Source: Cladocopium goreaui
Taxonomy: Eukaryota; Sar; Dinophyceae; Suessiales; Symbiodiniaceae
Assembly: GCA_947184155.2 (NCBI GenBank)
Contig: CAMXCT020000835.1
Span: 753,388 to 817,387 of the forward strand
Reading direction: 5' to 3'
Length of the DNA stretch: 64,000 bases
The notes under the pieces are model-generated. The model ran no database searches and was not told where the DNA came from. It saw nothing but the letters and a program-made list of their open reading frames with translations. Both the position numbers and the translations under genes were made by a program. How positions within the stretch are numbered: position 1 is the stretch's first letter; each line of letters starts with the position of its first letter. This document shows, in pieces, positions 42,667 through 53,414 of this stretch.

Positions 42667-45600
42667 CTACGTATGCTGCGATAGCACCCGCGCTAGCGGC
42701 CTCGGCGGCGAACGAGAGCGGGAGGAGCTTGGGGAACGACGTCGAGAGGAGCGTTTCTCTTGCTCATGCCTGTGGAGATTCGCCAGGATGTGCGAATCAG
42801 AGGTCAAAAAAAAGACATGGTCCCAGTATAGAGATCCCGATGTTCAATGGTGCATGGACCAGAAAAGTAAAATCACAGCAAATCCAAGTGACGGAGTATG
42901 CTGGAGATAGATCACAAAGATTCTATAGTCACCTTAATTAATTTCACTTGTTCGTTAAAAAAAAAAAACATGTGGTAGACATTGGAGCTTCCCTCTGGTA
43001 ATTTAACATAGCTATTGAAAATGGCCATTTATAGTTGATTTTCCCATTAAAAAAATGCAATTTTCAATAGCTATGTTAAATTACCAGAGGCTACAGTCAT
43101 TGAAGGTTGAATCTTGTGGCATCTGCCATTTGCCCCATGTGATCCATGTGGCCTCATGAAGAGCTCCCGTGCTGTAAGGTGTCGGTTCCCTCCGTTGCTG
43201 ATGTCATCCCCGCGGTTGTCGCCACCAAAGCGGTCGCCGCCGCCTCGGGGGAACGCGGATCCGGATGATTCCGGATGCTGTTACTGCAGATATGCTGAAA
43301 AGTTTGGAAAGGTTTATGGTTGGATTATGTTGGATTAATGTATCTTATCATATTTTATCCATTCTTATCCCAATTTCTGAAGTTCTTCAAAGTTCCACTC
43401 CGAAGTGCCCACAAGCTCAGAAACTGAACATACATTGCTCCTCAAAGTTTGAATAAACTGGACTCTGTACTCAATCCTGCTTCCCAAAAAAAGCAGTGCC
43501 TACTATGCCAGTCCGGAAATATCCAACTCTTGGACACACTGAAGAACTCCTACCAGTCCAAAAGGCTTGGTTCCCTAAGAAATCAATGTGTATGTAACAT
43601 GTACATCTCAGATGTGGAATATTTAGCTTCAGGATGTCATCCTGGATTTCACCAGGAATTTTCATCACTACCATCCAGTGATTCCTCCCCTGGCCGCCGG
43701 CTGCCAGGTGGCCCTTTCCACCCTTGCCCTTGCCGCGATCATCACGCCGGTCGTCCCGACGATCGTAGTCCCTTCGATCGTCGCGGCGATCATCGCGGCG
43801 GTCATCGCGGCGCTCGTAACGGCGGTCGTCCCGGCGATCGTCGCGGCGGTCGTCGTAGCCACCACCACCACCACCACCTCCCAAGACAGCGCTGGCAGAG
43901 ACTCTGGAAGGATGGAGAAGTCCTCAACCCATGTTTGTAATTGTTTTTCCTGTCTGATTATTGTGAAATTGAATGTACTTCCATGATGAAGATAGATGAT
44001 TGCCATGGTACATGATTACTAGTGAGTATCAGTATTGCTAGCAAGTGATGATCATTGAACAGGCGGAATCTTGACAACCCAAGCTCTTGGGAAACCAACC
44101 TGTTGTCCTTGCTGCACTGAATGGAATCTTCCCATTCAAAACCAAACGAAACAGCTATCTCAAGTTCTCGCAAAGTCTGTCAGGAATTAAGTATACTCTG
44201 AATATAAGGTACCCCGGAATCCAATGGTCAATTGGTTCATCATTCTTGTCCTACGGTGGATGGAACAATTCCTGCACCAGTGGATAGGTGTTTTATCCCA
44301 TTATTGATAGGGTTTCAACCATTCAAGGTGGTGCAGGATTTCTTCCACCCACAGTAGCATGTCCTAACATACCATTTTTGTGGCGATATCATGCGATATC
44401 CCATTTTCTCAAAAGGTTTTGAACAACGCTGTGGACCACCCAGGCCCAACCCAGGCCCAACCCGGCAGGACCTCCTTCTAATGACACGTTGACGGCGCGC
44501 ATCTTGCCCTTCCGGTCATCAAACTCGGAATCGAAGCGCACCTCGTGCATTAACAGGTGCAAGCACAATCTATCCGAAAGTGGCATCTGTGCCATGGTAT
44601 CATTGGTGTCTGAAATGGGGCATTCCCCCCTAAGTTGACATTGGATAGGGAATCTGATGGTAAAACAGTGGGTATCAAGAAGTATAGCGAGATTTGAACA
44701 CATGAGTGATTCAAACAAAAATCTAATCATGTGAATCTGCATAAACACTGAATTATGGCACTTTTGGCACTTTGCACAAATGGAGATGATAATTTATACT
44801 TTATACATCATATATGGGGGTCCCCAAAAGATGGACTTGTAAGTCACCATCAAAACAACATCCTGTTAAGGGAACCTTTCGCACTATCATGGCACTTAAT
44901 TTCTTCAAAAAGGGGATCCTTCAAGGATACCATCAGGAGCATCCGGGTTTGTCCCAAAGTTTTGGGGTACCTCATTTCTCGGCATCTTGGAGAAGAAAAC
45001 AAAAAAAATACCCATTAACTATATTAACTATATCCCATTATATCTCATTATATCACCATTATATCCCATTATATCACTCATTATATCCCATATATCACCA
45101 TTATATCCCATTAACTATATCCCAATATATCCCATTATATCACCATTCTGGTTGGTTTCATCCCCATAATACAAACCTCTATTCTATTTTTGCTGTGGAT
45201 CCTCATGAATTTGTCTGTATATCACGGTTGTCTACCCGGCTGCGTAAACCCTCATGATATTGCTAGTTCAATGGCTTCAAACCCTTAGTCTGTTTTTTGG
45301 GAATCAAAACCCGTTTTCTTCGTTAAACCATACTAAATCATCTTCAGTCTCACGAAATCGCCACTAAATCATCAGTCAATTCCGTAAAATCACCAACAAC
45401 ATCCCATGAAAGATGCCATAAAATCACCCATTCCCCCGGTCCCTCCGATCCCTTCCTTGAAATTGGGGAACCGGGGAAGCCCCCGGCCTTGTCTCCTTTG
45501 CCAAGGCCTTTGCATCCGCGCAAGGCCGAGGTGTGACAGAAGAGGTCCTCGCCACCGTCTTCGGGGCCTGCCAGGGGACCATCAAAGGTTTGGTGAATAT

Positions 45601-46217
45601 TGTGTTTGTCATTAACCATAATTAACCATTGTCTATCTTTCCGGGGCGCCCTATCTTATATTACATGTTTTACTGGTTATCTGGTTGGTGGTTTCAACCC
45701 CTCTGAAAAATAAGAAAGTCAGTTGGGATTATTATTCCCATATATTATGGAAAATAAAACAATGTTTGAAACCACCAACCAGATAATTAGACCTTATTAA
45801 CCATGATTAACCATAAATTACCATCATTCACCATCGTTAACTATCATTGATCATTATTAACAATGATTTGCACATTATTTGCCATGTATTCCCAATGATT
45901 TGCCATAATTAACCATTGTAAGTAACAACAGCTAACCCTTATTCACCATGATTTACAAATCATTTCTTACCATTGTTAACCATGATTTTCAGTTGTTCAA
46001 TAGAAAAAGACATAACGTGTGATCAAACTTGATCACAAATATGAGACTAGGAAGGATTGCCTGCCACTTCAAAATACTACAATTAATGAACAGTAATGGA
46101 GCAATGCACTTTAGGATGTATAATTTTAGATATACTGTCAACACAATTCCGGCCCTGGCCTATGAATCCGAAGCCCTTGTCATCGTTCCACGTCTTCACT
46201 GTCCCTGACTTCGACAT
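42667..46217 (-). CDS. Cold-shock-domain RNA-binding protein with RDD repeats and RS tail (paralogue A)
   Basis: Six exons: 46160-46217, 45488-45567, 44472-44541, 43713-43877, 43153-43243 and 42667-42769, giving 188 codons plus stop. Residues 1-69 are a cold-shock domain: MSKSGTVKTWNDDKGFGFIG holds RNP1 (KGFGFI), GGEDLFCHTS is RNP2-like, and KGKMRAVNV closes the barrel. A Gly run and YDDRRDDRR repeats follow, then GKGKGGKG, GGGDRFGGDNRGDD, LTARELFMR and an Arg/Ser tail (RSSRRRSPSSSRSRSPPRP). Single-stranded nucleic-acid binding, probably mRNA handling in nucleus or cytoplasm, follows from the family. Donors are GC (introns 1, 2, 4, 5) or GT (intron 3); all acceptors are AG|G. Introns 2 (after GDK) and 3 (inside the Gly run) are absent from paralogue B. 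Start chosen as the ATG giving the full domain. Confidence 0.88.
42991..43090. repeat. Family A element inside intron 5 of cold-shock gene A
   Basis: CCCTCTGGTAATTTAACATA at the left, ATGTTAAATTACCAGAGG at the right, ends nearly perfect inverted repeats over about 30 bp. It begins 62 bp from the acceptor-side border (43153) and fills a quarter of the 383-bp intron. Confidence 0.8.
45010..45150. repeat. CCATTATATCC tandem-like repeat in intron 2 of gene A
   Basis: Imperfect short repeats of CATTATATCCCATTATATCAC. Confidence 0.7.
45681..45782. repeat. Family B element inside intron 1 of cold-shock gene A
   Basis: CTGGTTGGTGGTTTCAACCC to TGAAACCACCAACCAG, complete. It is absent from the equivalent intron of paralogue B. 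A, T-rich AACCATNATTAACCAT repeats follow (45788-45990). Confidence 0.8.
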
Positions 46218-46226
46218 TGCCTGGCA
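46218..46226 (-). promoter_or_regulatory. Possible trans-splice acceptor just upstream of gene A start
   Basis: On the minus strand CTGCCAG ends four bases before the ATG at 46217. Dinoflagellate mRNAs receive a spliced leader at such AG sites. It could equally be a cis-intron acceptor of a 5' untranslated exon. Confidence 0.25.
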
Positions 46227-46326
46227 GTGGTGGCTTTGAGATTGCTATCTCCATCTGTGAAATAATTCTGGGATAATTGTGTGACAGTGACATATGACAT
46301 TTATATATATTTTATATTATTATATA

Positions 46327-46447
46327 CCCTCTTGTTATTTAACATGGCTATGGAAAATGGCCCACTTATAGACGGTTTATGGTGAATTAATGTGAATTAC
46401 CTATCAAAAATGGTGATTTTCCATGGCTACGTTAAATAACCACAGGG
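46327..46447. repeat. Family A element about 110 bp upstream of gene A start codon
   Basis: CCCTCTTGTTATTTAACATG at the left, TACGTTAAATAACCACAGGG at the right, TA on both sides. Confidence 0.75.
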
Positions 46448-47274
46448 TACATATATATATATATATATAACTTATGTAATTAAAACCATCTTTGGGCTCA
46501 AGAGAGATTCCGTTCTCTCCATTCCAATCTGAAAATCCTTGCAGGAATTCCCACATTGGTTTGACCATGATCCACAAATCAAATGATTTCGGACCCGTCA
46601 GTGAACCCCATGAGTCCATGAGAGATGAATCATCATTGGCTTTCAAGTCATCTATTGGATTCTTCTACCCTACGTACTCCGAGTCATATGAGTCATGCTG
46701 CTTCAAGACCCAACAGAGTCGCACTACCCAGCAAGTTATTCTGAGAGGGTTTCACAAAATGGCTATAACGTTTGTGCGAAGTGTCTTCTTGCCAAACTAC
46801 TCCAATTCGTGGACGGGGTCCGCTTGGATCGCTGGGTAAATCATCTGCTGCCTTCAAAGTTCAATTTGTTAACAAATACCCGCCAAAGAGTATACCTACG
46901 TATAGAAGGTGTAGAATGTAGAAAGGTAGGTGATTATGTATATGCATATTTAATTAGGGTGCGCCAAATTTGTTGTACCAAAACATGGATGGTGTTCAGA
47001 TCTGAAACATGATCAGCTTGTTGCGAGTACCAACAGCAGTTCCCGACCGCCAAAACCGCTGCAGTAATTGACATTGTCCCGAAATATGTGGAAAAAACAA
47101 ATATACAGTCAGGTGGATAATACTGAATCAGCATCTATAGAATCTATGACTACTAGAAATTCTGAATCATACTGAGAGTATACTGAATACTACTGCGACT
47201 ATTGGATATGTTGCAGCTGGATCTGGGGATATGTCTTTTACGAGTACCCCCAAAAATACCGTCAATGGTCTTAC

Positions 47275-47363
47275 TCAGGGCTAACGAAGGCTGCCACGCC
47301 TCCGCACCGAAATGAAGACCACCGGTGCCGGCTATGCACCCGCTCCCCGTCGGGTGGTTTGTG
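47275..47363 (-). CDS. Candidate exon between the two cold-shock genes
   Basis: The minus strand reads TNHPTGSGCIAGTGGLHFGA then EAWQPSLAL, phase 2-1, from TTGCAG| to a GTAAGA donor. A Gly-rich, protein-like segment. A plus-strand frame (MKTTGAGYAPAPRRVVCAAN) overlaps. If real, at least one other gene separates the paralogues. Family not recognised. Confidence 0.4.
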
Positions 47364-47732
47364 CTGCAAACGGCGGTGTTTTTTGGTGTAGCCATGCAAA
47401 GTGTCAACCAAACAACCTCTACATGACCCCCCAAAATGAAGGGTCTTGCCAAAACATGGGGCTAGATGGGCAAAAAATGAAAGGCTCAAGATGCAAGCTT
47501 GGGCCAGTAGGGCCACTGGTACATGTTTCGCTGTGAGGGTCGTATTTTTTGCCCATCCCAGTGGGAATCTCGGAGGGAAATCCATCAAATTGGCCAGTTG
47601 AGAAGGGGGAAACCATCCTGATTGCCGTTTTTAATTACAACATAGACATAGTAGTACATAGTCTGTATTCTTTTCAAAATATGTATGCTGATGCTACCAA
47701 ATCCATCTAAAGTCCATAACCAGGTGTCTCTT

Positions 47733-47850
47733 CCAGCCCACATCCTTTTTGCTTTTGCTTCGCTGATCCACCTTCGGATGCTATAATTGGACCTCCAAAG
47801 GGTGGCCACAGGAGCTGGGAGGATCTGCAGCTCCGAAGTTCCAATCGTTG
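47733..47850 (-). CDS. Candidate exon between the two cold-shock genes
   Basis: The minus strand reads SELQILPAPVATLWRSNYSI then RRWISEAKAKRMW, a basic helix-like stretch with several possible AG acceptors. Borders unresolved. Family not recognised. Confidence 0.3.
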
Positions 47851-48559
47851 AAATCTGTTGAATGGAGAGATTAAAGAAACAATGAAGACTTCTGAAGAAT
47901 GTATACATAAGACATGTTTGCTGCACCTTTTTAATGGCTGTGAGGCCTTTTCAAACTGGCCTTAAAATGGCACTGCTCTGACTAAATGCAACCAGGAACG
48001 CGATGGAACGCGATGGAACACGCACTGTACACACTGGCATTGCACAGCGCGAGTCACTTTGAGATCATTTGCAAGCTGAAAGTTCCGACAGCCTACAGCC
48101 AGTGATTGCCGGGGATCTTGTGGAGGGATATTGTGGAGTCTTTTTCCTAGGGCATGGCCACTAGCTTTGTGCTTGGGTCCTTACCTAGAACCAGTAGAAC
48201 CACAGGGAATCCTGTGTTGCACCCAAGCTTTTCTAACATCATGACAATCGGGATGTGCGTAGTCACAATCAAGATACTACTGTCCGCTACTAAGCTACCA
48301 GCATTGATGACATTTGCTTTTGAATATTGTGAAATATTATAAGACTCCCTCAAGCAGTATGCTGCATGCTGAAGTGGACAAAAACCTGTGATCTGAACAT
48401 AGTGTGGAAGCCAGCCTCTTTCCCCTATCCTCCTGCAACCAGGCATGGTTGAGAAACTCATGCGCAACGCATGGTTCCTGCAACAGGAGGTCATTGGCTG
48501 CAAACCGTGGAGAATGGGGATCCTACGTAACTGTTTGTTGATACCATCCTCTCCGTATT

Positions 48560-48840
48560 GTCGAAAAAAAAACATGCCAAAGGGAAGTCATCCCCTTCTC
48601 CCGAACGGTGTTTTTTATTGAAACACAAACTCAAATCTTGGACGATTCAAAGAACCCGGACTGCAGGAAACCTCAAGCAGGTGTACTGCACATCGCGACT
48701 CAGGCGAAATTGTCTCGTTTGGACCTGGCGGTGGATCGTGCGCCGCCCAATCCAATCCCACCATCGTCCACTGGCACGTTGCTACAGAAGTGTGGAAACT
48801 ACTTGCGGCAATCACTTTTTTATTGTGCTTAAGGGGTGGG
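48560..48840. other. Exon-like stretch, strand uncertain
   Basis: The plus frame HIATQAKLSRLDLAVDRAPP and the minus frame TSVATCQWTMVGLDWAAHDP overlap in a GC-rich island. Coding is possible; strand unresolved. Confidence 0.25.
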
Positions 48841-49109
48841 GGATCATCTTTCAGCAAGTTGATTAGATTGCCAAAGGGCAGTTTTGTTTGTCAAAAAAAA
48901 CAATTACAACTGGTGAAATACTTTTCTTCTCATAGTACTTTGCTCTCATGTACTTCATCCACTAGTTGGCTATGGTTCAAAATCACCCTGAATCATGAGA
49001 TGAGATCTTATCCGAGAAATATATGGGTGATGGTTTCAAATTCATACTAACATCATGATACGATCATCAAGAAACCGCAGTCATACGTTTATTTCAATCA
49101 TTGCATGTT

Positions 49110-50230
49110 GTAAATATAAAACATGTAATGTATATATATATATATATATATGATATATATGTGTTATATAATGTGTAATATAATGTGTAATACAATGTGT
49201 AATATAATGTGTATATATATAATATACCATATCCAAAACAAATGTAATATTGAATAAGTTGTTTTTGTTAATATATATTTATAATATAAAATACAAAATA
49301 TAATATATAATGTATATAATATATAATGTATACAATAATTCAATATATAGGATAATCTAATACGATATATAAAATATAATATATATGTAGACAAATAAAT
49401 AAATATATATATATGTAGTAAAACAAATATAATACTACATATATATTTATAATAATATAAATGCTATATATATGATATATATAATATACATAATATATAT
49501 ATAAAACGAAATAATAATCATAATACTATATGTATATAGTATCATATATAATATGATATATGTGATACATATATACATATACATTATCTATAGTGAAATA
49601 AATAATAAGAATAAAATAAATATAAGATACACTATATAGTGTGTATATATATACAAAAACATAATATATATATATATATATTCATAAAAAATGTGTATAT
49701 ATATATATATTATTTTAAATCTGTAAAAATATATAATCAAAATGTAATACATAAATATAATGTAATTAGTAACATATATATATATGTTTATATATACATA
49801 ATGTAATATATATATATATATACATATCTCATATACAATATATGCATATAAAACATTATATATAATGCTTTATATATATGATATGCATAATACATATTAT
49901 ATATAATATATAAAATATTATACATAAAATGAACTATATATATAATACTGTACATATAATGAAATAAATATATATAACATATAATATATCTAATATTAAT
50001 ATAATACAAAATAAATAATATATAATAAACACCGTATAATATCATTATATACATTACATTACATTACATTACATTATATTATATTATATTATATATATTA
50101 CATTACATTATATATAATGTATTACATATATGTAATGTGACATATATATATATATTATTATTATGTAAAATACATAATATATATATACATATGTATATAT
50201 ATATATTATGATAATATGCATAATATATAA
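49110..50230. repeat. AT-rich low-complexity spacer, about 1.1 kb
   Basis: Almost entirely A/T with TATATA runs, TACAT repeats (50050-50080, ATTAC units) and short inverted AT blocks. It lies directly downstream of paralogue B. Tyr/Ile-rich frames here are artefacts. Confidence 0.9.
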
Positions 50231-50272
50231 ATATGCATAAGTACGTAACAATATATTTCAACAGAATCCTTC

Positions 50273-53200
50273 TCAAAGCACCGCAGCCCGCCTGGGAGAC
50301 CTCTGCCTGGGAGGAGACCTAGACCTAGAAGAAGAGGACGAACGCCGGCGCCTCTCACGCTCGTGCCTGGCGCATCACTCGACCATTGCCACATGGCTAC
50401 ACTCTTGGATATATACGGATTAATAGTGGATAATAATCGTAATGATATGTTTGTATATAGTGTGTATATATATATATATGCAGATTTCCGAAGCATGGGG
50501 TACCCCCAAATCATCAAATTAGACAACTTTCAAGGATTTAAACAACCAGTAAATCCAGTATGCCTGGGGATCCACCATTGCAAGAAACCCCATGTATAGT
50601 GTGCCAATCAAGTGTACTATGGCATAATATGACATATGATTGTATACAATAATATACAATTCAGCACAGGTTTTTGAAAATATATATGAACATCTAATGA
50701 TAATATATAGTAATTATGGATATTCTGCTGTATACTATCGATATATTGTAGATATCTTGCTCACCAAATCCATTCATGATCCTTTCATGAAAGGTCTTCT
50801 CTCGCCGGAAAGAGTGGTGAACTTTCCAACAACCACGGGGGTTGTACGGAAACAAGAACAGAAAAACAACGTCCCTTATAAGCCTTATAGTTCTGAATCA
50901 TTCTGAATTGTCACTTGTTACAGCAAATTCGATGACAATTGTTGAACATTCATACAAAAAAACTATGGACTTCTTACAGCACATTCTTTGAAAATTTTTG
51001 AAAAATCATACGAAAAATCCATGGCAACTGCGCCTCATGAACAGCTCGCGCGCCGTGAGGTGGCGATTTCCTCCGTTGCTGATGTCGTCCCCACGGTTGT
51101 CGCCACCAAAGCGATCGCCGCCGCCTGGGACGGCAAGGGACGGCAAGGGACGGCACTGAAAGCTTCAGATTTGACGTAAATCCATGGTAAATCTATCCCT
51201 GTGAATCAAATACTGGGTCTATTTGCTGACATTTGCGGTAAACCTTGCTTTTTGACGTCCGTATGAATTATTTGACGTCCGTAGTCAAAAATTGGCAACA
51301 TTTGCGGGAACGATAATTTTACCGTAAAATGCGATGAGCACGAGCCAAGAGTAACAAGGTATATAAAATGAGGGGTCAATCCTGAAGAGATCACGGTTCA
51401 TCACGTTTTGTCACGGTATTTTCGACAAATGTCATAATTTTAAGTGGCAAAAAGATGATTCGTCACGATTTGTCACGATTTTGAACTACATATGGCCATG
51501 ATCAACTCGCATGCGCATCTTCGAAACAAAGGATGTCTGCGTTGTTTCATCAATTTCCGACAAAATCCGGTGGATTTCCGACAGATTCCGACAAATGTCA
51601 CCAAAATCAAGCGTTAACGTAGATGTAGCCGTATTTTGACTACGTTGCTATTTTTGATCTATATGCCGACATCGATTCTCAGGGTATGGTAAATCTATGG
51701 TTCCTGTAGATACGAGGCCGTGTTTAGTGTTCAAATTCATCATGTCTGCAAGTACATCATCACATATCATCACCATGTTCCCAATCCACATTGCCATTTT
51801 GTGGTGTACCAGGGTATAACAATGTATAACCCATCAGTGCACAAAGTATCTTGGGTCAACCAAACCAACAGCACAGCCAAGATTCCCTTGCCACCTTTCC
51901 CCTTGCCACGATCATCACGGCGATCGTCACGGCGATCATAATCCCGACCTTGGAACAGGTGATGGGACATGGTTTTCTGAACCCATGATGAACCCATGAT
52001 GAACACGTGGAGGCTTAAGGGATTCAACTTGTCTGCTTTGGTGCTTTTATCCCACAAAAATATTTGCCATCTCAACCAATCATCCCAAGATATCCCAAGT
52101 AGGGCACTGGATGGGCACTGGGATGATGGTTAATCCATGGATCCACAAGCCATGCATGGTACTGGCACTTAACCACAATGAAACGAAAACAATGGTGAAA
52201 TAATTTCCCTTAATAGTCTCCAATAAAATGATGTTTTAGTCATCATTTCTGGTCACATCCTTTGAAATTGCTACAGAACTGATGGCAGCTTTGCATGCCC
52301 GGCTACGATCATCGCGGCGGTCATCACGGCGGTCATCACGGCGGTCATCACGGCGGTCGTCACGGCGGTCGTCACGGCGACGATCGTCGCGGCGGTCGTC
52401 GCGGCGGTCGTCGTAGCCGCCGCCGCCGCCACCGCCCTCAATGGACACGTTCACCGCACGCATCTTGCCCTGGGAGGAATTGTGATCAACCAATATGGAT
52501 TTATGCAACAAACATGTGGATCTAGCCAACAGTAATGAGGATTCAACAAATAAGAAACGATTAAATTCATCCAAGCAATACGGAGTAAGATAATTGGCTA
52601 TTGCTGAACACTTTCTTGGGTACAAGCAGACTAAGGATTAACTCAAGGGACTTTGGAGGTTGTCAAATCTCTGGCCCACAGGTGGTACAGCTTCCAACCA
52701 TCCATTCCCTGACCCTCCTGGACCTTGGGGATGGTTTACTAACGTGACCAGCCCTAAGTGGCTCCGAAACTTTCCCGCAAAGGCTCTTTTTTATGCTCAC
52801 GACATCTCACGATAAGTACGCAATTATCACAATTTGGAAACTGTTCCACAAACTTTCCCCGGTTTTCCCGGCCTTGCGATCGTCATATTCCGGCTCAAAA
52901 CGCACCTTGTCTCCCTTCCCGAGACCCTTGCAGCCACGCAAAGAAGAAGTGTGGCAAAACAAGTCCTCGCCACCGTCGTCAGGACCTGGACGGCAGATGA
53001 CGGCAGAACTGGTTCCAGCTTTGAATTCTTGGAATTCCATGGATTTTTTCATCAGTTCAATCAGTCCATCTTGTAGATCTTATAGATGTAGATAGCGATC
53101 GTTTGCAAGATCTCAAAGACATCAACATAAATCAATAGTTTTGAAACTACAAACAGTCCTTAATATGGTTATGGATCAAAACCCTCGTACCCTAACCTTA

Positions 53201-53414
53201 AAATAGCTGGTTGATGGATGGTTATTCCCCCAAATATGGTACAGTTATGGCCATTTATCAGTTATAACTGGTTATAAGTACTTATAACTGGTAAAGGGCC
53301 ATAACTGTAATAATAGGTTTTGACCCATCCCCATATCTTCACAGCTCATTCCAGGCCTATGAAGCCGAAGCCTTTGTCCTCGTTCCAATTTTTCACGACA
53401 CCAGTCTTGGACAT
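50273..53414 (-). CDS. Cold-shock-domain RNA-binding protein with RDD repeats and RS tail (paralogue B)
   Basis: Six exons: 53357-53414, 52873-52985, 52307-52469, 51886-51948, 51034-51124 and 50273-50366, giving 193 codons plus stop. The cold-shock domain spans about residues 1-69: MSKTGVVKNWNEDKGFGFIG with RNP1 KGFGFI, GGEDLFCHTS with the RNP2-like site, and GKMRAVNVSIEG. Seven Gly, then YDDRR and RDD repeats, RDYDRRDDRRDDRGKGKGG, GGGDRFGGDNRGDD, LTARELFMR, and the tail RRRRSSSSSRSRSPPRQ. Role inferred as for paralogue A: RNA chaperone or mRNA-binding factor. Donors are GC (introns 1, 2, 5), GT (3) and GA (4); every acceptor is AG|G. Introns 2 (after DDRK) and 3 (inside the RDD repeats) have no counterpart in paralogue A. 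Gene B lies 4.1 kb upstream of gene A in the same orientation. Confidence 0.88.
50497..50597. repeat. Family C element in intron 5 of cold-shock gene B
   Basis: GGGGTACCCCCAAATCATCA at the left, GGGGATCCACCATTGCAAGA then AACCCCAT at the right; the outermost left arm is lost. Confidence 0.55.
53241..53308. repeat. 68-bp hairpin in intron 1 of cold-shock gene B
   Basis: ACAGTTATGGCC at the left and GGCCATAACTGT at the right are exact inverted repeats; CAGTTATAA and TTATAACTG continue the stem. It may be a very short inverted-repeat element. Confidence 0.7.

Follow-up and report, generated by a model that had tools for sequence, protein, structure and literature searches.

Shared and paralogue-specific introns in a tandem pair of predicted cold-shock-domain genes from Cladocopium goreaui

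How did two neighbouring genes that encode the same protein plan come to carry introns at different places? The question is raised by a stretch of 64,000 nucleotides (nt) of DNA from the dinoflagellate Cladocopium goreaui (the window), in which two predicted cold-shock-domain genes, A and B, lie one behind the other on the minus strand. The interval 42667-53414 matches exactly the span from the gene A stop to the gene B start. We found that three intron positions are common to both genes and four are not. In our view the probable explanation is that introns have turned over in the ordinary dinoflagellate manner since the pair arose by an ancient tandem duplication. The sequence models of the genes and their introns are as follows.

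42667..46217, minus strand: gene A, exons 46217-46160, 45567-45488, 44541-44472, 43877-43713, 43243-43153 and 42769-42667
50273..53414, minus strand: gene B, exons 53414-53357, 52985-52873, 52469-52307, 51948-51886, 51124-51034 and 50366-50273
45568..46159, minus strand: intron A1, shared position FI|G, phase 1, GC-AG, 592 nt, foldback at 45677-45786
44542..45487, minus strand: intron A2, discordant, GDK|V, phase 0, GC-AG, 946 nt, middle made of a ATATCCCATT-type tandem repeat
43878..44471, minus strand: intron A3, discordant, EG|G, phase 1, GT-AG, 594 nt
43244..43712, minus strand: intron A4, shared position GKGGKG, phase 1, GC-AG, 469 nt
42770..43152, minus strand: intron A5, shared position FMR, phase 2, GC-AG, 383 nt, foldback at 42992-43090
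52986..53356, minus strand: intron B1, shared position FI|G, phase 1, GC-AG, 371 nt, repeat at about 53157-53342 and 70-bp foldback at 53240-53309
52470..52872, minus strand: intron B2, discordant, DDRK|G, phase 0, GC-AG, 403 nt
51949..52306, minus strand: intron B3, discordant, inside the RDD repeats, phase 1, GT-AG, 358 nt
51125..51885, minus strand: intron B4, shared position GKGGKG, phase 1, GA-AG, 761 nt
50367..51033, minus strand: intron B5, shared position FMR, phase 2, GC-AG, 667 nt

The gene pair and its intron positions

Introns 1, 4 and 5 interrupt the two genes at the same codon and in the same phase, namely at the Gly of FI|G, the Gly after GKGGK and the Arg of FMR. The other four positions are each occupied in one gene only, A2 and A3 in gene A and B2 and B3 in gene B, and at each of these sites the opposite paralogue reads through as uninterrupted coding sequence. 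If any of the four were retained, translation would run into a stop in frame after 22-46 codons of intron sequence (4/4). At the A2 and B2 sites the alignment of A with B is free of gaps. Gene B is one Gly shorter at the A3 site, and the B3 site lies in a repeat array that has nine extra residues in gene B, so that the exact homologous base is less certain for A3 and B3. A2 and B2 are 11 codons apart and A3 and B3 about 34 (gene A numbering) or 43 (gene B numbering), which would be too distant for intron sliding. These comparisons support a minimum of four intron gains or losses between A and B, except in the case that the shared positions arose by parallel insertion. The first-pass annotation, made from the letters alone, had described the same protein plan with introns shared after FIG, GKGGKG and ELFMR, discordant introns after GDK and in the Gly run of A and after DDRK and in the RDD repeats of B, and about four gains or losses since duplication within proteins of about 190 residues; on all of these points our analysis agrees with it.

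The gene models rest on several features of the coding sequence. Each gene consists of six exons in a single frame (188 codons in A, 193 in B), and both proteins consist of a cold-shock domain, a Gly run, RDD repeats and an RS-like tail. The Pfam domain CSD (PF00313) scored 60.2 bits (1.8e-16) in A and 56.6 bits (2.4e-15) in B against a curated cut-off of 27. Both contain the KGFGFI motif, and the second motif reads DLFCHTS instead of VFVHF (motif reference PMC4863620). By domain score and KGFGFI motif, A and B qualify as cold-shock-domain proteins, and by analogy with LpCSP1/2 and SkCSP1-3 (PMC4863620, PMC8106185) they are likely to bind RNA without sequence specificity. When the exons were aligned over 184 codons, synonymous divergence (pS) was 0.72 and non-synonymous divergence (pN) 0.09, with pS ranging from 0.56 to 1.08 by segment; such strong purifying selection supports the models. 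Because synonymous sites are saturated, the duplication is old, without sign of recent gene conversion, and there was ample time for the intron events, which are spread over a long period.

In the genome assembly (1.17 Gb, 6202 contigs), searches found only A and B as close copies and no third. Other matches there were 41-47% identical (E up to 0.001) or 37-60% identical (E up to 0.1), some of them short or repetitive. As the window stops at a contig end, further tandem copies could exist past the assembly edge. A scan of viral_contigs for relatives of A and B gave seven pattern matches, none of which was confirmed. Immediately downstream of the gene B stop codon lies about 1.1 kb of almost pure AT repeats (49100-50250).

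The splice sites are of a kind known from dinoflagellates. Over the ten introns the donor is GC in seven, GT in two and GA in one, and the acceptor is AG in all ten; according to a review, GC or GA make up 25-74% of Symbiodiniaceae donors (PMC11453091). The ten introns thus look like dinoflagellate spliceosomal introns, with donors that start with G, including GC and GA, and an AG acceptor before G, and we infer that all ten are spliced. By eye, intron B3 also offers a GC donor 3 nt downstream (GTA|GCCGGG); its use would keep the frame and add one Ser, and would leave the discordance of B3 unchanged. A 21-base query, which we take to be the dinoflagellate spliced leader, has 172 exact copies in the genome, and its reversed control has none, which marks the host as a dinoflagellate.

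In the ten introns of 42770-53356, GC content is higher at the edges (67% over the first 16 nt and 61% over the last 16) than inside (38%), and the pattern C-N(1-2)-GG occurs in the first 16 nt of all ten, against a GC-matched expectation of 5.8. Introns B4 (51125-51155) and B1 (52986-53005) have short TGCCGTC repeats directly before the acceptor. In B4, GGCAAGGGA, which spans the donor, is complementary to TCCCTTGCC close to the intron end.

Junction sequences and intron ends

In the first-pass annotation, AG|G on both sides of the junctions had been taken as the direct-repeat signature of introns that arrived by insertion. The AG|G itself is present at all ten acceptor junctions and at seven of the ten donor junctions, the exceptions being A4 and B4 (both AAGG|G) and B3 (GATC|GT). 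Direct repeats at the junctions measure 3, 6, 3 and 2 nt for the discordant introns and 5, 3, 4, 3, 2 and 4 nt for those at shared positions; they reach at least 3 nt in 8/10 introns (3-5 nt in seven, 6 nt in A3), as often in shared as in discordant ones. AG|G also resembles the exon-junction consensus MWG|gy..sag|GY given for sPCP genes (PMC4201569). As a splice consensus it does not discriminate insertion from ordinary splicing, and the proposed signature is not supported. In a chaperonin-like control gene, L087, AG|G was found at 3/7 donors and 7/7 acceptors, so that at donors it is less frequent there than in the A/B pair (7/10). This control is rough: its junctions were assigned by eye along a chaperonin protein, and seven pairs were used after three unsettled ones were dropped.

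The abundance of AG|G bears on the exception raised above, that the three shared positions arose in parallel. One copy would have come from spliced RNA, both copies would later have gained introns independently, and the agreement would mean that insertion struck certain AG|G sites more than once. There are 17 and 20 such sites in the coding sequences, and the chance that at least three of five introns coincide is about 0.07 if insertion is confined to 20 common sites and 0.17 for 15, a point in favour of this reading. The A4/B4 junction nevertheless lies one base off AG|G, yet agrees in codon and phase, no spliced-leader relic was found in the window within three mismatches, and a tandem arrangement is not what retroposition would favour. 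We regard parallel insertion as the least probable of the readings considered here.

We also examined the intron ends for the inverted repeats that the first-pass annotation had proposed to look for in the discordant introns. Dinoflagellate introner elements are usually marked by inverted repeats 8-20 nt long that lie in the 30 bases next to either end of the intron (PMC10666404, PMC7789003). None of the ten introns has an inverted repeat of 8 nt or more within its own 30 end bases; the longest, in A1 at a shared position, is 7 nt. Exact pairing between the ends averaged 4.70 nt for an intron's own pair and 4.72 nt for mismatched pairs, 4 of 90 of which reach 8 nt, and local alignment gave means of 4.8 for own and 5.5 for mismatched pairs. 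With ten exon bases added on each side, in a version run without a control, one intron of ten reaches 9 nt (B4, at a shared position).

We considered and rejected the start of intron B3 as a decayed RDD unit (GTAGCCG compared with GTCGCCG): control GT sites did equally well in 13/301 cases over 7 nt and in 63/301 over 12 nt.

Genome copies of the discordant introns

Among the scored genome candidates, we found no full-length copy of A2, A3, B2 or B3, and all matches were confined to internal stretches. Simple repeats and very frequent words are passed over by this search, which detects only fairly similar DNA, so that old, decayed relatives would be missed. The whole of A2 gave 109 matches including itself (best 40 of 278 candidates scored), and all others fell at query positions 323-483, an internal tandem repeat. 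Searched alone, its 3' 463 nt matched only itself in the genome, and its 5' 330 nt matched itself and one 74-nt stretch at 81% identity (positions 60-133). A3, searched only as a whole intron, gave 74 rows (best 40 of 1135 candidates scored), and all but the self match fell in 93-246, on or around a foldback at 115-221. B2 had a single internal match of 42 nt besides itself, and B3 had nine others of 41-57 nt at positions 203-269. A multi-copy family containing any of the four discordant introns was thus not found.

The repeats that do recur in the genome lie inside introns of both kinds. Foldbacks occur in four of the ten introns, A1, A3, A5 and B1, of which only A3 is discordant. The A3 element is as follows.

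44251..44357, minus strand: foldback element of about 105 bp in intron A3, with high genome copy number and termini TAC..GTA

It was found at 39 other places at 84-95% identity among the 40 scored candidates mentioned above; a follow-up alignment gave rows for 11 of 20 loci, and the A3 locus itself had no row. The 70-bp foldback in B1 is 99% identical to a copy on contig C4446. It is apparently nested in another repeat (about 53157-53342), as C5849, C294 and C2027 match on both sides of it, at positions 15-50 and 116-194, and C3517 and C768 match across its inner edge (best 40 of 1644 candidates scored). Because the A3 and B1 elements are internal and do not end at splice sites, they would decorate introns rather than create them. 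A foldback upstream of gene A (46338-46450) resembles by eye the one in intron A5. When all introns were compared with each other, the best score was 25.6 bits (A2/B3), and no similarity at E up to 1 was found for A1/B1, A4/B4 or A5/B5, which is uninformative given the saturation.

These results bear on the proposal that A2, A3, B2 and B3 are strict introners, which would have arrived as members of a non-autonomous DNA transposon family and been flanked by target-site duplications. Dinoflagellate genomes are known to contain introners, some families of which have no inverted repeats (PMC9860276), and the 6-nt repeat at A3 (GGAG|GT) could be such a duplication. All four discordant introns, and none of the six at shared positions, also have a GCCGGG box that falls in their opening 11 nt, a split of 1 in 210 by label shuffling (computed by hand), although the motif was picked after looking at a sample of ten introns. 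Over the first 16 nt, 4/10 introns have the box, against a GC-matched expectation of 0.28. The same box is found by eye at position 15 of an intron in an unrelated gene, however, the other three discordant junction repeats are only 2-3 nt, all ten introns lack inverted repeats within their ends, and no multi-copy relatives of the intron ends were seen among the scored candidates. Strict introners therefore seem improbable to us. More doubtful still is a narrower proposal, that the discordant introns form one old introner family without inverted repeats, with the GCCGGG box beside a co-opted donor as its surviving mark, and that the six introns at shared positions are older.

Gain, loss and known systems

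To ask whether the discordant introns were gained or lost, we turned to other cold-shock domains in the genome. A genome-wide scan listed 28 matches, of which four on contig C1 were set aside as bacterial-looking and 24 were used. All 24 span the intron 1 site in one frame, 23 span the A2 site and 19 the B2 site; none of the spanning matches has an intron at any of these sites, and 2/24 contain a stop. That other cold-shock matches are intron-free at A2 and B2 favours gain over loss for these two introns, with outgroups that are biased as set out below. Two further cold-shock genes, L080 and L082, seem by eye to be broken within the domain at different places. Contigs C1 (7.377 Mb) and C2380 each have three nearly full-length, unbroken GroEL-type chaperonin matches, and C1 also has its four cold-shock matches unbroken; both are probably co-cultured bacteria in the assembly.

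The alternative is differential loss, in which all seven positions were occupied in the ancestor and two introns then disappeared from each copy, for instance through recombination with complementary DNA (cDNA). Such loss would leave a clean junction, as the paralogue shows where A2 and B2 are missing, and a review describes intron gain and loss in dinoflagellates as dynamic (PMC11453091). The introns lost would be internal ones, with 4 and 5 retained, which is not the 3' bias that recombination with cDNA would suggest, and the 23 and 19 matches without an intron at A2 and B2 speak against it as far as a biased sample can. We think differential loss unlikely, but less so than any form of introner insertion described above.

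The explanation that we favour, intron turnover in two ancient tandem duplicates, would run as follows. A and B would descend from a dinoflagellate gene for a cold-shock-domain RNA-binding protein whose copy in their common ancestor already had introns 1, 4 and 5. After duplication the intron set would have been altered in each copy, most likely by new insertion. Three of the four insertions would have fallen on AG|G proto-splice sites (A2 at AAG|GTG, B2 at AAG|GGC, A3 at GGAG|GT) and that of B3 on GATC|GT within the repeat array. Splicing machinery tolerant of GC and GA donors would have helped the new introns, any source elements would have decayed past recognition, and small foldback transposons may have landed later in some introns, shared and discordant alike. 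In keeping with this, the intronless paralogue has AAG|G precisely where the other gene carries A2 or B2, and 7/10 junctions lie on AG|G sites. Differing gains are also on record: the short and the long sPCP genes of Symbiodinium gained different introns, at AAG|GCC, G|GT and G|GC (PMC4201569), and the review cited above reports introners in dinoflagellates as well as a dynamic turnover of introns by gain and by loss (PMC11453091).

Several points weigh against this explanation. No inserted element is recognisable, and B3 lies off AG|G. The outgroup count is biased, since the scan prefers unbroken domains and missed A and B themselves; many of the 24 matches are near-duplicates of a few genes (such as C783/C2629 and the C513 sets), and five stop before the B2 site. 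For A3 and B3, whose sites are not part of the domain, there is no outgroup. The same pattern could also come from losses in an ancestor that had all seven introns. Gain rather than loss, like the insertion step itself, is inferred.

The pair is a compact, well-bounded case of intron turnover, in which shared and discordant introns stand together in proteins of about 190 residues. No publication on it was found by title in a partial literature on introners, cold-shock introns, tandem arrays and intron gain and loss. With orthologues, it could serve to place gains or losses at four sites; alone, it adds one example to the reported sPCP genes and introners, and its paralogue-specific introns are an ordinary case of a known dinoflagellate phenomenon. 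The closest likeness is to the sPCP genes of Symbiodinium (PMC4201569), which are also dinoflagellate paralogues with differing intron positions, gains at proto-splice sites, non-canonical donors and AG before G. In the sPCP case the gains were mapped to a tree that included relatives lacking introns; A and B differ from it in that some of their introns are shared. The introners of Symbiodinium microadriaticum, Amoebophrya and Prorocentrum (PMC9860276, PMC7789003, PMC10666404) resemble the present introns in turnover, non-GT donors and short junction repeats, but the A/B introns have no inverted repeats within their ends and no multi-copy family was found for the four discordant ones. At the protein level, A and B resemble the dinoflagellate cold-shock-domain proteins LpCSP1/2 and SkCSP1-3 (PMC4863620, PMC8106185) in having one cold-shock domain followed by a C-terminal extension that contains Gly, and differ from them in their RDD repeats and RS-like tail.

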